Positions 1,990 to 13,045 of a DNA stretch of 41,298 bases are shown piece after piece (the stretch's first letter is position 1; each line of letters opens with the position of its first letter). The translations under genes were made by a program, and so were the position numbers. The notes under the pieces are model-generated. The model searched no databases. It had not been told where the DNA came from and worked only from the letters and a program-made list of their open reading frames with translations. Source of the DNA: Opitutus sp. GAS368 (GTDB lineage Bacteria; Verrucomicrobiota; Verrucomicrobiia; Opitutales; UBA953); assembly GCA_945866215.1 (NCBI GenBank), contig CAMBGQ010000013.1, positions 1 to 41,298 on the forward strand, in the 5' to 3' direction.

Positions 1990-2303
1990 ACGTGAGGGAT
2001 AAGGGTAAAAGGGCTGAGGGGCAAGGGGCAGGTTTTGGCGGTTTGCGGTTTGCGGTTGGCGGTTAGAATAATTTTCGGGTGGCAGGTGGCAGCCCCTGGT
2101 GGCGGGTTGCAGGTGCTCATCCCTGGACCTGCACCCGAACCCGAACAACCGAACCTGAGACCCGATGGCCGAGACCTGAGACCTGAAAATGCATCTCCCG
2201 CCACCTGCCACCCGAGGCTGCCACCCGCCACCTGAAACGACTGCCCCTCAGTATCTAAACCTTCCCCTCCCCTCCTCTCCCCCTTTATTCTCCCCAGACG
2301 TCC
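1990..2303. repeat. 314-base divergent gap filled by a heptad-repeat mosaic
   Basis: The gap between the dioxygenase and ligA starts. At 2038-2065 there are four tandem heptads GCGGTTT, GCGGTTT, GCGGTTG, GCGGTTA (module beta). At 2076-2114 comes an arm of GGGTGGC/AGGTGGC heptads around an AGCCCC spacer (module alpha). At 2197-2235 lies its imperfect reverse complement (alpha'). Between the arms, 2115-2196 holds other 7-base units such as CCCGAAC, CTGAGAC and CCGATGG (module delta). The whole can fold as a large hairpin. Promoters for both flanking genes must lie in or beside it. The last 50 bases before ligA are pyrimidine-rich. Confidence 0.7.
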
Positions 2304-4328
2304 ATGCTGGAATCCCCCCGCGATCAGATCCTCCGCCTCCGCGCCGCCATCCAGCGTCACGAGGAGCTGTATCGCAAGAAGCACGCCCCGGAGATCTCGG
2401 ACTTCGATTTCGACAAGCTCGTCGACCAGCTAGCCGACCTGGAACGCAAGCATCCCGAATTCGCCGGAACCGACCTGGGGATCGGCGACGACAAGTCCGA
2501 GGGCTTCCAGCAGGCCGACCACAAGGCCCCGATGCTGTCGCTCGATAACACCTACGATGAAGCCGACTTCCGGGCCTTCGGTGACCGTCTCTACAAAGCT
2601 CTCGGTGGCTCGGGCCTGGAATTCATCGTCGAACCCAAGGTCGACGGGGTGGCGGTCTCGCTCACTTTCGAGAAAGGCCAGTTCGTCCGCGCGGTCACCC
2701 GCGGCAATGGCGCCCGCGGCGACGATGTCACGGCCAACGTCAGCCTCATCCGCGAGATTCCGCGCACCCTCAAGGGCGCGCCCGACCTCCTCGAGGTCCG
2801 CGGCGAGATCTACATGGCGCTCGCCGAGTTCCAACGCCTCAACCAGCTCCGCGAAGCCGAAGGCGAGCCGCTCTACGCCAACCCGCGTAACCTCGCCGCC
2901 GGCACGGTGAAGCTTCTCGACGGCGAGGAAGCCCGTAAGCGCCGCCTCAGCATCGTCTGCTACGGCCTCGGCGCCTGCGAGCCTGCCACCGCTTTCGCCA
3001 CGCTCAAAGAATTCAAAAACAAGCTGAAGGTCTGGGGCTTCCCCATCCGCGACGACATCGACATCCAGCAGGGCGTCGACGCCGCCTGGAAAGCGATTCA
3101 GCAGCTCGACGTCCTCCGCCGCGAACTGCCCTTCCCGACCGATGGTGCCGTGGTGAAGGTCAACCGCCTCGAAGACCAGCGCCGCGCCGGTACGACGAGC
3201 AAGTTCCCGCATTGGGCTGTGGCGTTCAAGTTCCCACCCGACCAGGCCGAGACCATCCTCCGCAAAATCAGCATGCAGGTTGGCCGCACCGGCGCCATCA
3301 CGCCCGTCGCCGAACTCGACCCCGTCCTGCTCGCCGGCTCGACGGTCGCCCGCGCGACGTTACACAACGCCGACGAAATCGCCCGTAAGGACATCCGCGA
3401 AGGCGACACCGTGCGCATCCAGAAGGCTGGCGAGATCATCCCGCAGGTCCTCGGCGTCGTACTGGAGAAACGCCCCGCCGACGCCGTGCCGTTCGACTTC
3501 GAAGCCCGCCTGAAGGAGCTCGGCCTCGACGCTTCCCGCGACGGAGAAGAAGCCGCCTACAAGCTCCGCACACCTTCGCGCGAGATGAAGATCCGTCGCC
3601 TCGTCCACTTCGCCAGTAAGCAGTGCCTCGATATCGACGGCCTTGGTGACGCCGTGGCCGAACAGCTCGTCGACAGCAAACTGGTCGACGTCCCGGTCGA
3701 TGCACTCGGTATCACGCCGCCGCAGTGGCGAATGCTGGAAGGCTTCAAGGACAAGTCCGTCGATAACATGATGGCCGGCCTTGAGCAGGCCAAGCAGCGC
3801 GAGTTCTGGCGCGCGATCCACGCGCTCGGTATCCCGAACGTCGGCATGCAGACCGCCAAGGACCTCGCCCGTCATTTTAAGTCCATGGATGCGCTGGAAG
3901 CGGCGCAGCCTGGCGACCTCCTCGTCACCAAGGTCGGCAAGAAAGGCGGCATCTCGTATGAGTCCGTCATCTCCGGCGTCGGCATTGAAGTCTCCGAATC
4001 CATTCTCTCGTTCTTCAGCGACCCCAATCACCGCGACTGGGTGAAGGCCATGCGTGCGGCCGGGCTCAACCTCGTCGAAGCCGCTGCGGCAAGCTCGGTC
4101 CAAGGCGTATCCGGTAAGACCTTCGTCCTCACCGGCACCCTGCCTACGCTCGGACGCGACGAAGCGCGCGACATGATCGAAAAGGCCGGCGGCAAAGTCT
4201 CGGGCAGCGTCAGCAAGAACACGCACTACATCGTGGCTGGCGAAGAAGCCGGCTCCAAGCTCACCAAGGCCCAGGAACTCGGCGTGCCCGTCCTCGACGA
4301 AGCCGGCCTGCGAGCGCTACTTGGTTGA
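2304..4328 (+). CDS. ligA: NAD+-dependent DNA ligase lacking the Cys4 zinc finger
   Basis: A 674-residue protein close to the usual LigA length. The order is: N-terminal Ia/NMN region, adenylation domain with the KVDG motif (nucleophile K112), OB fold, helix-hairpin-helix region ([16 protein letters not shown]) and a C-terminal BRCT domain from about residue 595 ([18 protein letters not shown]). It seals nicks with NAD+ during replication and repair. The part between the OB fold and the HhH domain (about residues 391-430), where LigA normally carries CxxC...CxxxxxC, contains no cysteine at all; the only nearby Cys (SKQCLDIDG) is past that position. The stop overlaps a possible start of the ankyrin gene. 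It may be the main ligase or a second paralogue; other motifs look intact. Confidence 0.95.
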
Positions 4329-4330
4329 AC

Positions 4331-4777
4331 ATGGCCACCTTGCCCTTTCTCCCCGACGCCGCGGCGGAGCTTGCCCGCAAGGGGGACACGGCCGGTTTGG
4401 CCGCGCTGATCAAAGCCGACCTGGCAGTGGACGCACAGGACACCAAGGGCAACACGCTGCTGATGCTGGCATCCTACCATGGCAAGGCCGAGACGGTCGC
4501 GATGCTGCTCAAGGCATGCGCCACGGTCGACCTCCGCAATGCGAAGGGCCAGACGCCCCTCGGTGGCGTGGCCTTTAAGGGCTACGTCGACATCGCCACC
4601 CTGCTGCTCGACGCCGGCGCCGACCCGGTGACCGACCAGGGCGGATCGACCCCCGCCGACTTCGCCACCTTGGCCGGCAAGACCGAGATCCTCGCGCTCC
4701 TGCAGTCGCGTCGTGACAACGCCGCCCAACCGACCCGCTGGTATAGCAAGCTGATCGGTTGGGTGCGGAGGAGCTAA
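4331..4777 (+). CDS. small ankyrin-repeat protein
   Basis: A 148-residue protein made almost entirely of ankyrin repeats: KGNTLLMLASYHGKAETVAMLL, then KGQTPLGGVAFKGYVDIATLLLDAGAD, then GGSTPADFATLAGKTEILALL. No signal peptide is visible. The ATG at 4331 lies two bases after the ligA stop; a TTG at 4325 would instead overlap that stop (TTGA), so translational coupling to ligA is likely either way. Ankyrin repeats mediate protein-protein contacts; the partner is unknown. The co-operon position suggests expression with the ligase but does not prove a shared role. Confidence 0.85.
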   Translation: MATLPFLPDAAAELARKGDTAGLAALIKADLAVDAQDTKGNTLLMLASYHGKAETVAMLLKACATVDLRNAKGQTPLGGVAFKGYVDIATLLLDAGADPVTDQGGSTPADFATLAGKTEILALLQSRRDNAAQPTRWYSKLIGWVRRS

Positions 4778-4783
4778 TCACTC

Positions 4784-11764: not shown

Positions 11765-11815
11765 TGTGTTGTCATCGGCCCTAAACTCCATACTCCCGAC
11801 CCTAGTCCCCGACAC

Positions 11816-12958
11816 ATGTTCACCCTCCTGAAGACCGATACGACGACGGCCGCGCGCCTCGGCGTGCTGAAGACCCCCCACGGGGAAATCCGCACGCCGG
11901 TCTTCATGCCGGTCGGCACCCAGGCCACGGTCAAGGGGCTCTCCCCCCAGCAGGTCGCCGAGACGGGTGCCCAGATCCTGCTCAGCAATACCTACCACCT
12001 GAACCTCCGCCCGGGTCGCGAGATCGTCCGCGCGGCCGGCGGTCTCCATAAGTTCATGCACTGGGACAAGCCGATCCTGACCGACAGCGGAGGCTTCCAG
12101 GTCTTTTCACTGGCGAAGCTCCGCACCATCACCGACGAGGGCATTCATTTCAGCTCTCACCTCGACGGCAACAAGCTGTTCCTCGACGTGAAGGACTGCT
12201 TCGACATCCAGGACGCGCTTGGTTCGGACATCGCCATGGTGCTCGACGAATGCCCGCCCTACCCCTGCGAGCGTGCCGCGTGCGAAGTCGCGGTAAACCG
12301 CTCCATCCGCTGGGCCAAGGAAATGCTTCAGCTGGCCAAGGACAGCGGCTTCCTCGCTTCAGGTCGGCACCTCTTCTGCATCAACCAGGGCTCGATCTAC
12401 AATGACCTGCGGATTCGTTGCGCCGAAGAGCTCGGTGGACTCGATTTCCCTGGCCACGCGATCGGTGGCGTCAGCGTCGGCGAACCCGAGGAGCATATGC
12501 TCCATCAGGTCGGCCTCGTCGCCCCGCTCCTGCCCAAGAACAAGCCCCGCTACGTCATGGGCGTCGGCACGCCGCCCCAGTTGCTCCGCATGGTCGCGCT
12601 CGGCGCCGATATGTTCGACTGCACCATGCCGACGCGCATCGGTCGCCACGGCGGCGCGTTCACGCCCGACGGCCCGATCAGCGTGAAACATCTGCGTTAC
12701 CGCGACGACCACCGTCCGTTGGTCGAAGGCATGGACAACTATACCTGCCGCCATTTCTCGCGCGCTTACCTGCGTCACCTGCACCACGCCGGCGAACAGC
12801 TCGGCGGCACGTTGCTGGCCCTGCACAACATCCATTTCCTGCAGGACCTCATGGCTCAGGCCCATGCGCACATCGCCGCAGGCGACTTCGCCTCCTGGTC
12901 TCAGGCCTGGTGCGAACGTTACGAAGCCGGCGCGAAGGACGAGATACCAGCGGATTAG
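11816..12958 (+). CDS. tgt: queuine/preQ1 tRNA-guanine transglycosylase with incomplete zinc site
   Basis: A 380-residue protein of normal Tgt length. It exchanges G34 of GUN-anticodon tRNAs for preQ1 on the way to queuosine. Catalytic features are intact: DSGGFQVFSL with D90, and FDCTMPTRIGRHG with D268. The C-terminal zinc site is usually C-x-C-x-x-C plus a His about 26 residues on. Here the aligned residues are M306, N308, C311 and H337 in MDNYTCRHFSRAYLRHL and LHNIHF, so two of four ligands are gone while the surrounding sequence is well kept. The ATG at 11816 has no Shine-Dalgarno. No queuosine-pathway neighbours are present. Confidence 0.94.
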   Translation: MFTLLKTDTTTAARLGVLKTPHGEIRTPVFMPVGTQATVKGLSPQQVAETGAQILLSNTYHLNLRPGREIVRAAGGLHKFMHWDKPILTDSGGFQVFSLAKLRTITDEGIHFSSHLDGNKLFLDVKDCFDIQDALGSDIAMVLDECPPYPCERAACEVAVNRSIRWAKEMLQLAKDSGFLASGRHLFCINQGSIYNDLRIRCAEELGGLDFPGHAIGGVSVGEPEEHMLHQVGLVAPLLPKNKPRYVMGVGTPPQLLRMVALGADMFDCTMPTRIGRHGGAFTPDGPISVKHLRYRDDHRPLVEGMDNYTCRHFSRAYLRHLHHAGEQLGGTLLALHNIHFLQDLMAQAHAHIAAGDFASWSQAWCERYEAGAKDEIPAD

Positions 12959-12967
12959 AGGCAGGAA

Positions 12968-13045
12968 ATCAAAGGGAGACCGGAAACCGGGGGGATGGCT
13001 ACGGGCGCCTAATAACCCAGCCAATCATCCGGTCTCCGGTTTGAG
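12968..13045. repeat. gamma inverted repeat after tgt
   Basis: Left arm 12968-12990 carries GGGAGACC then GGAAACCGG; right arm 13029-13045 is the reverse complement of AAACCGGAGACCGG. The bases inside the right arm extend the match to the gamma arm at 7005-7031 (GATRATTGGCTGGG). It is directly followed by REP pair D. Confidence 0.68.

Follow-up and report, generated by a model that had tools for sequence, protein, structure and literature searches.

The window, by which we mean the whole 41,298-nucleotide stretch analysed here, derives from a freshwater Opitutae bacterium, probably of the UBA953 group, and its intergenic gaps hold several heptad-built near-palindromic families (alpha, alpha2, beta, gamma and delta), often nested. 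These families and the zeta elements were located as follows:

1164-1227, strand not assigned: zeta element, a GTAGGG-tagged double hairpin, REP/REPIN-like and of a class apart from the other families here (stem scan)
2038-2065, plus: beta left arm of four GCGGTTN heptads (units and positions checked)
2073-2113, plus: alpha left arm, partly degenerate (stem 2073-2113/2197-2237)
2128-2189, minus: delta right arm within the alpha pair, left delta arm undetected (borders by eye)
2197-2237, minus: alpha right arm (stem partner of 2073-2113)
4782-4822, plus: single alpha left arm, 7-7-6-7 layout (stem scan)
6867-6894, plus: beta left arm, partner arm not found in its gap (sequence check)
6995-7018, plus: gamma left arm, outer shell (stem scan and arm alignment)
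7039-7064, plus: alpha2 left arm (RGGTGAC), inner shell (stem scan)
7162-7187, minus: alpha2 right arm (stem scan)
7212-7234, minus: gamma right arm (stem scan and arm alignment)
7988-8028, plus: single alpha left arm (right border by eye)
8038-8061, plus: gamma left arm (stem scan and arm alignment)
8096-8113, minus: gamma right arm (stem scan, arm alignment and fold)
8124-8144, minus: beta right arm (sequence check)
11586-11711, strand not assigned: GTAGGG...CCCTAC element of zeta type (sequence check)
11736-11764, minus: degenerate beta right arm (by eye; comparable tracts occupy this gap in G016)
12969-12990, plus: gamma left arm (stem scan and arm alignment)
13017-13042, minus: gamma right arm (stem scan and arm alignment)
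13059-13114, strand not assigned: zeta element (stem scan)

A first-pass annotation had described seven-base units at loci between 2.0 and 13.1 kb, and both units and coordinates are present, as is, exactly, the reported match of 4784-4822 to the complement of 2197-2235 at 37 of 39 bases. Alpha, beta and gamma keep to the seven-base period, whereas the delta tract passes, as judged by eye, into six-base RGGTNC units. Where alpha-delta-alpha' had been proposed (2076-2235) the alpha pair was recovered, but of delta the right arm alone was detected; the nest at 6997-7234 retains its gamma shell, but its core is not alpha and delta, the order being gamma-alpha2-alpha2'-gamma' (unit RGGTGAC). The gamma pair followed by an inverted beta arm near 8039-8145 and the gamma pair near 12968-13045 were both found. 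The degenerate beta tract at approximately 11736-11764 was missing from that annotation. Alpha, gamma and delta each form one near-palindrome of approximately 75-150 bases, in which the 5' arm is G-rich and the two arms carry built-in mismatches to each other; seven-base units are common to unrelated families, and neighbouring heptads alternate between A and G in three of them. The only window match to Rfam at the gathering score was one tRNA, with no repeat element.

The annotation had staked its proposal on periodicity and inverted pairing exceeding those of shuffled gaps, which they do. Lag-7 identity in the window gaps was 0.308, compared with 0.261 in dinucleotide shuffles (z 5.5), and was 0.250 in genes. 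Inverted stems at a fixed score were found in 61 of 234 sampled gaps of the own genome, a count that takes in the zeta hairpins (GTAGGG-type, a different class), versus 0 of 234 after one shuffle; without zeta, 43 of the 234 gaps carried stems, and the corresponding figures for the window gaps were 5/18 and 3/18. For four window elements the DNA fold was more stable than that of any of 200 shuffles, with z between -3.9 and -7.1.

Nor are the units confined to the window, which the annotation would have taken as a refutation. The 2038-2260 stretch gave 85 own-genome matches, a figure in which some places count once per strand; it also matched 21 of 24 relatives from the same genus and 0/13 genomes of other families. 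An alpha query matched 39 of the 55 genomes of the genus, the own one among them. The elements are almost only intergenic, and within the genome the repeats are regional, not uniform: non-zeta stems were present in 39/146 gaps of stretches chosen by hits versus 1/70 of unchosen ones. Beyond the window, the seven-base signal was weak in the unchosen stretches C1-C7 (z 2.6, with 2 tandem tracts across 60 gaps), where stems occurred in 1/49 gaps. One alpha stretch used as a query found no match in phages, and the gamma-alpha2 nest none in plasmids; in viral contigs the exact alpha pattern occurred in one contig and the gamma pattern in none.

Orthologous gaps, the comparison of which the annotation had advised, were at the species level either short or occupied by other nests; the same gap in different species had different unit sequences, and the elements change faster than the surrounding genes. 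The gap orthologous to 15525-15542 measures 18, 18 and 6 bases in G000, G005 and G067; in G015, G016, G019 and G041 it extends to 161-176 bases and, by eye, contains a palindrome. Upstream of ligA, G019 and G005 have a gap of 95-96 bases, which spans 269-556 bases in nine others and 1513 in one. Gene-cassette shuffling in the polysaccharide locus was rejected, as the gene pairs are retained in G015 but the modules there are different ones. On own contig C8, alpha arms enclose the four-helix gene of a 23S rRNA IVP; among relatives, the 30 best IVP loci, taken with flanks of up to 1500 bases, contained alpha, alpha2, gamma and delta in none, zeta lying approximately 800 bases off in one, hence the own copy is probably a chance insert and the gene was dropped as a partner of alpha.

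Each family has two arm types, and partners were of opposite type in 50 of 58 elements (alpha 15/17, gamma 20/21, delta 15/20), with both orientations seen. Identity between partner arms was below that between arms of other loci (alpha 0.810 vs 0.849, gamma 0.831 vs 0.876, delta 0.712 vs 0.789), with 0/1000 permutations as low in each of these families, and elements at many loci, in both orientations, share identical arm-specific differences. The pairing of opposite arm types in both orientations indicates that whole asymmetric units were copied and, as expected of fold-back elements, whole units are dispersed in both orientations.

The annotation's modular, nested family, with its several constituent families, was also evident in nested stems of the own genome and of genus members. 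Adjacent same-family arms in the own genome ran left-right in 46 instances, in the same direction in 4 and right-left in 0, and the elements were nested in 6 instances, side by side in 1 and crossing in 0. Amongst genus members, non-zeta stem pairs were nested (22), disjoint (6) or crossing (2); leaving zeta out of the stem counts strengthened the nesting and weakened the convergent-gap enrichment. Loops exceeding 45 bases were present in 17/23 alpha and 6/21 gamma pairs (23 loops in total). No split arms were found, against approximately 20 expected by length after correction for a weak recovery of simulated splits (6/40 and 12/43). Exact flank repeats at 59 elements of three families gave no indication of target duplication, with mean lengths of 2.30, 2.17 and 2.56 bases (alpha, gamma, delta) compared with 2.36, 2.36 and 2.19 for mismatched flanks, delta being slightly above.

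We consider it probable, albeit far from certain, that the alpha, gamma and delta families, with alpha2 and beta probably to be added, are non-autonomous mobile hairpins that enter the loops or linkers of folded single-stranded DNA. Mobile hairpins were one option raised in the annotation, and are supported by the dispersal, the unit copying, the arm geometry, the inserts in loops, the lack of duplication and the turnover of gaps. New copies would enter single-stranded DNA, for example the lagging-strand template, at loops and linkers of already folded hairpins, which would leave elements nested or next to one another, with their arms unbroken and the target not duplicated. The mover may be an enzyme of single-stranded DNA, HUH-like or otherwise, that is encoded outside the elements, with copies that hit promoters or genes presumably removed by selection. 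Arguing against mobile hairpins are the crossing pairs (2 without zeta, 6 with zeta), the long inserts found in 0/20 delta pairs, the weak recovery of split arms and a gap comparison at species level in which no insertion between strains was seen; nor could a transposase be tied to alpha, gamma or delta. Nests could also grow by arms added around a centre, as where alpha arms enclose a terminator-like hairpin in the own genome and in G016.

It is unlikely that alpha, gamma and delta are ordinary REP/REPINs mobilised by RAYTs, although they are short extragenic palindromes and Y1 transposases are encoded in 28/55 genus genomes (24 above the family cut-off). Zeta, which has GTAGGG, flanks the transposase match left and right at 7 of the 25 distinct Y1 loci scanned (L204, L205, L207, L209, L212, L219 and L221; 26 were fetched, L215 repeating L202). 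However, the arm consensus of alpha, delta and gamma starts with TTTC or CTCAAAGGG and lacks the GTAG tag, and at the 25 loci no alpha, gamma or delta pair opened and closed around the Y1 gene, leaving these families with neither a GTAG end nor a cognate RAYT flanked by the repeat. Alpha does not follow Y1 presence (21/39 alpha-bearing vs 7/16 alpha-less genomes, p 0.56), so that a RAYT was rejected as its mover for want of association across the 55 genus genomes, and the own genome has no Y1 transposase. Reverse transcriptase, for telomerase-like tandem synthesis, was likewise rejected (RVT_1 in 1/55 genus genomes, none in own), as was IS110 (0/55). Five wide arm pairs in the sampled stretches enclosed genes without a transposase family, including one 182-residue protein without any family, and no parental transposon was found in those stretches.

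The hairpins might instead be RNA elements, kept as 3' ends, stabilisers or terminators of transcripts, and non-zeta stems do favour convergent gaps (own genome: convergent 10/30, co-directional 26/132, divergent 7/72; other genus members: 15/49, 30/171 and 12/93), more steeply when zeta is counted in the own gaps (19/30, 35/132 and 7/72). Stable folds, computed with DNA parameters, and the alpha pair around a terminator-like hairpin also agree with such a role. We nevertheless hold it to be improbable. The annotation's view that A/G and C/T differences preserve RNA pairing through G-U was not supported, since in co-directional gaps, read along the coding strand, G-U was not above A-C (122 vs 149, p 0.11; without zeta 68 vs 90, p 0.09), and neither compensatory nor G-U-tolerant pairing was seen on the transcribed strand. 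Moreover, partner arms are less complementary than arms from different elements, the elements occur in both orientations and are missing from some orthologous gaps, and a T-tract after the right arm is inconsistent (by eye). In-place growth, with slippage making heptad tandems and fold-back template switching making inverted arms, accords with the seven-base units in unrelated families and the differing units of one gap between species, but is very improbable and disfavoured for alpha, gamma and delta, given that partner arms should then be most alike, that one set of arm-specific differences is shared by elements of either orientation at many loci and that neighbouring heptads alternate A/G in three families, though it could explain the birth of new families.

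Returning to mobile hairpins, we tentatively raise the possibility of a previously undescribed bacterial class that lands in the single-stranded loops of other hairpins, depends on a mover with no relation to RAYTs and is kept imperfect. This reading includes the A/G-alternating neighbours and disagreeing facing heptads, which would prevent both tandem and inverted repeats from becoming perfect. If true, the gaps would document naturally how DNA inserts into folded single strands, since the choice of target could be read from the order of nesting, the unbroken arms and the absence of duplications. The imperfect layout common to unrelated families makes the survival of long palindromes in bacteria a testable question. 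In this lake lineage gene order is far more stable than the gaps, a point of importance when strains are compared or such genomes assembled. Among open-licence PMC search results, nothing appeared on nested heptad hairpins in Verrucomicrobia.

Among known systems, MITEs are non-autonomous, with inverted arms and many copies in both orientations, and by that description the elements here are alike; they differ in that no target duplication was found, nor a parental transposon in the sampled stretches, and in that the arms constitute most of the element. Cyanobacterial STRR, the nearest analogue according to the annotation, are seven-base intergenic units; the window gaps have that period, but the copied unit is a hairpin, as the arm-type pairing indicates. 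The heptameric G-rich repeats of Xanthomonas and Nostoc are also seven-base and intergenic but are described in the abstract as G-quadruplex-forming tandem units and not as paired inverted arms (PMC4692102). Bacterial stem-loop sequence families are similarly foldable, intergenic and in many cases undescribed, though the abstract does not mention nesting (PMC2267715). Mitochondrial repetitive or double hairpin elements are likewise mostly in gaps, lineage-specific and mobile-looking, yet are organellar, with described stems of approximately 10-18 bases and tandem multiples instead of nests (PMC2800124). Closest are REP/REPIN/BIME systems with their RAYTs, which are also short, dispersed extragenic near-palindromes that vary by lineage; for E. 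coli REP, conserved stem mismatches matter (PMC8266576). In comparison, the elements here have no visible GTAG or CGTC tag and no linked RAYT was found, and each is a single large hairpin of approximately 75-150 bases with heptad arms and loop-in-loop nests. As probable mobile hairpins, alpha, gamma and delta would be a variant within the REP/REPIN kind.

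Re-reading of the window sequence bore out the repeat units and positions proposed in the first-pass annotation, and its claim of 37 identical bases in 39 between an alpha arm and the complement of another was exact. Identity at a lag of seven bases was 0.308 in the window gaps relative to 0.261 after shuffling (z 5.5), and the same autocorrelation test gave no outstanding lag-7 signal within genes. The window corresponds to contig C13 in an assembly of 1.90 Mb and 97 contigs (85.5% complete). Genes were called with a home-made caller, such that gap borders are approximate. Inverted-repeat stems above a fixed score, including those of the GTAGGG-tagged hairpin class zeta, were found in 61 of 234 gaps of this genome and in 38 of 126 gaps of the same-genus relative G016; shuffled controls, using each gap of both genomes once, gave none at this score. 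With zeta excluded, stems remained in 43/234, 23/126 and, within the window, 3/18 gaps. Many of the sampled stretches had been picked because of repeat matches, and stems without zeta occurred in 39 of 146 gaps on these (counting contig C78, picked for another gene), relative to 1/49 (C1-C7) and 0/21 (C10, C11, C14, C15) on unselected stretches of the same genome; the corresponding counts in G016 were 19/85 and 4/41. The repeats are therefore regional.

Profile searches of 41 stretches from this genome and 20 from G016 retained 356 arms (zeta included), 353 of which lay outside called genes. By eye, the alpha, alpha2 and delta families have a common frame, TTTC-RGGTnnC-RGGTnnC-RGCC, in which nn is mostly GG, GA and CT, respectively. 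The beta family yielded one profile match as against 25 tracts by pattern scan of the stretches from the window's genome, 24 of them in gaps. With zeta left out, G outnumbered C in the 5' arm of 61 stems of this genome and was the scarcer of the two in 6 (31 and 2 in G016), and neighbouring arms of one family, zeta again excluded, were arranged left-right in 46 instances, in the same direction in 4 and right-left in none (13, 3 and 0 in G016). Pairs of stems among genus members were nested in 22 cases, side by side in 6 and crossing in 2, or 50, 35 and 6 with zeta; locus L106 carried a triple nest, of beta around gamma and gamma around delta. By eye, relatives carried additional families in these gaps, heptad-like or hexad-like in their units. 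The gaps orthologous to window 15525-15542 in L139 (G041) and L117 (G016) showed still more hairpin families, built from different short units (e.g. GAGTACT).

Similarity between the two arms of an element was lower than that between arms from separate elements in all three families compared (17 alpha, 21 gamma and 20 delta pairs). Two-way clustering blind to partnership revealed two arm types per family, with partners of differing type in 15/17 alpha, 20/21 gamma and 15/20 delta elements; at alpha site R5 partner arms agreed in 0 of 24, in a table where a single G016 locus appears under two handles, L089 and L117. Among different copies at most 30 kb apart on one contig (mostly C8), the similarity of opposite arms (0.797) was as low as that of partners (0.793). 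Both orientations were present among the clustered alpha, gamma and delta elements, and all nine paired alpha copies on C8 lay in one orientation. This arm-type pattern is that expected for copies of an asymmetric founder, and is the reverse of that expected from compensatory pairing.

Adjacent heptads alternated between A and G above expectation in beta (60/82, 40.5 expected), gamma (76/84, 42.1) and alpha (111/165, 80.6), with no excess in alpha2 (11/18, 12.1 expected) or delta (19/30, 17.4). Agreement of three families is the stronger point here, as the p values exaggerate the significance owing to the relatedness of the copies. One reading is that selection may act against perfect repeats.

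More than 45 bases separated the arms in 17 of 23 alpha, 6 of 21 gamma and none of 20 delta pairs, and loops were seen to contain gamma, delta, alpha2 and GTAGGG elements and a terminator-like hairpin. No split arm was detected, although detection was poor on simulated splits (recovered in 6/40 alpha, 12/43 gamma and 11/28 delta). Had inserts fallen by length, the number of splits expected after correction for detection would be roughly 15 in alpha and 5 in gamma, from rough arm and loop lengths and assuming equal survival of arm and loop inserts. No target duplications were found in 59 elements. In orthologous gaps of two species (L097 2751-2918 and L118 13979-14105), a terminator-like hairpin with a T-tract lay between alpha arms. 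At L009 10996-11666, alpha arms enclosed a gene of the IVP family (23S rRNA, four-helix-bundle), a link absent from the 30 top-ranking IVP loci in relatives.

The window stretch 2038-2260 had 85 matches in its own genome, some sites being counted on both strands, and matched 21 of 24 other same-genus genomes and none of 13 genomes from other families of the order. In a sample of 54 gaps from outside the family, stems of any kind occurred in 4. A composite alpha element was matched in 39 of 55 genus genomes, the window's own among them. Window gaps right of 15.6 kb were mostly of similar length in the relatives, apart from four that exceeded 1 kb. Those of the left third varied widely (e.g. 95-1513, 185-819 and 82-522 bases), in part because some contain genes. 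By eye, the gap upstream of ligA was short in G019 and G005, held only GTAGGG-type hairpins in G054, and differed in contents elsewhere. Gap 15525-15542 measured 18 bases here and in G005 and 6 in G067, and its orthologue in four relatives measured 161-176 bases and held a palindrome. At a polysaccharide locus on C8 (L009 9505 to L010 14916), 13 gaps out of 15 carried alpha. Of nine syntenic gaps found in G015, the six inspected had mainly gamma, accompanied by delta, alpha2 or a GTAGGG element.

Stems without zeta occupied 10/30 convergent, 26/132 co-directional and 7/72 divergent gaps in this genome, and 15/49, 30/171 and 12/93 in other genus members, a gradient milder than when zeta is included. 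Such a gradient would fit the loss of copies landing in promoters. The earlier proposal that G-U keeps RNA pairing largely possible was not supported, as coding-strand G-U did not exceed A-C (122 vs 149; 68 vs 90 without zeta). Beyond position, there is no sign of an RNA role.

As common movers, IS110 elements (0/55 genus genomes) and reverse transcriptases (1/55) are unlikely. Nor did alpha track the Y1 (RAYT-type) transposase, which was present in 21 of 39 alpha-bearing and 7 of 16 alpha-less genomes, and was not found in the window's genome (85.5% complete). Many of the genomes are incomplete, which makes absence from any single one weak evidence. An exact alpha pattern occurred at 252-275 of L254, a contig of the IMG/VR viral collection that may be host DNA. 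The tRNA-Val gene of the window is surrounded by a 20-base inverted repeat (13638-13736) taking in part of the acceptor stem. The window also carries three zeta elements:

1164-1227, GTAGGG-tagged REPIN-like element
11586-11711, GTAGGG-tagged REPIN-like element
13059-13114, GTAGGG-tagged REPIN-like element

Zeta elements flanked the transposase match on either side at 7 of 25 distinct Y1 loci of relatives (L204, L205, L207, L209, L212, L219 and L221). Zeta is therefore assigned to the GTAG REP/REPIN class, which PMC3733652 reports from Verrucomicrobia and from O. terrae.
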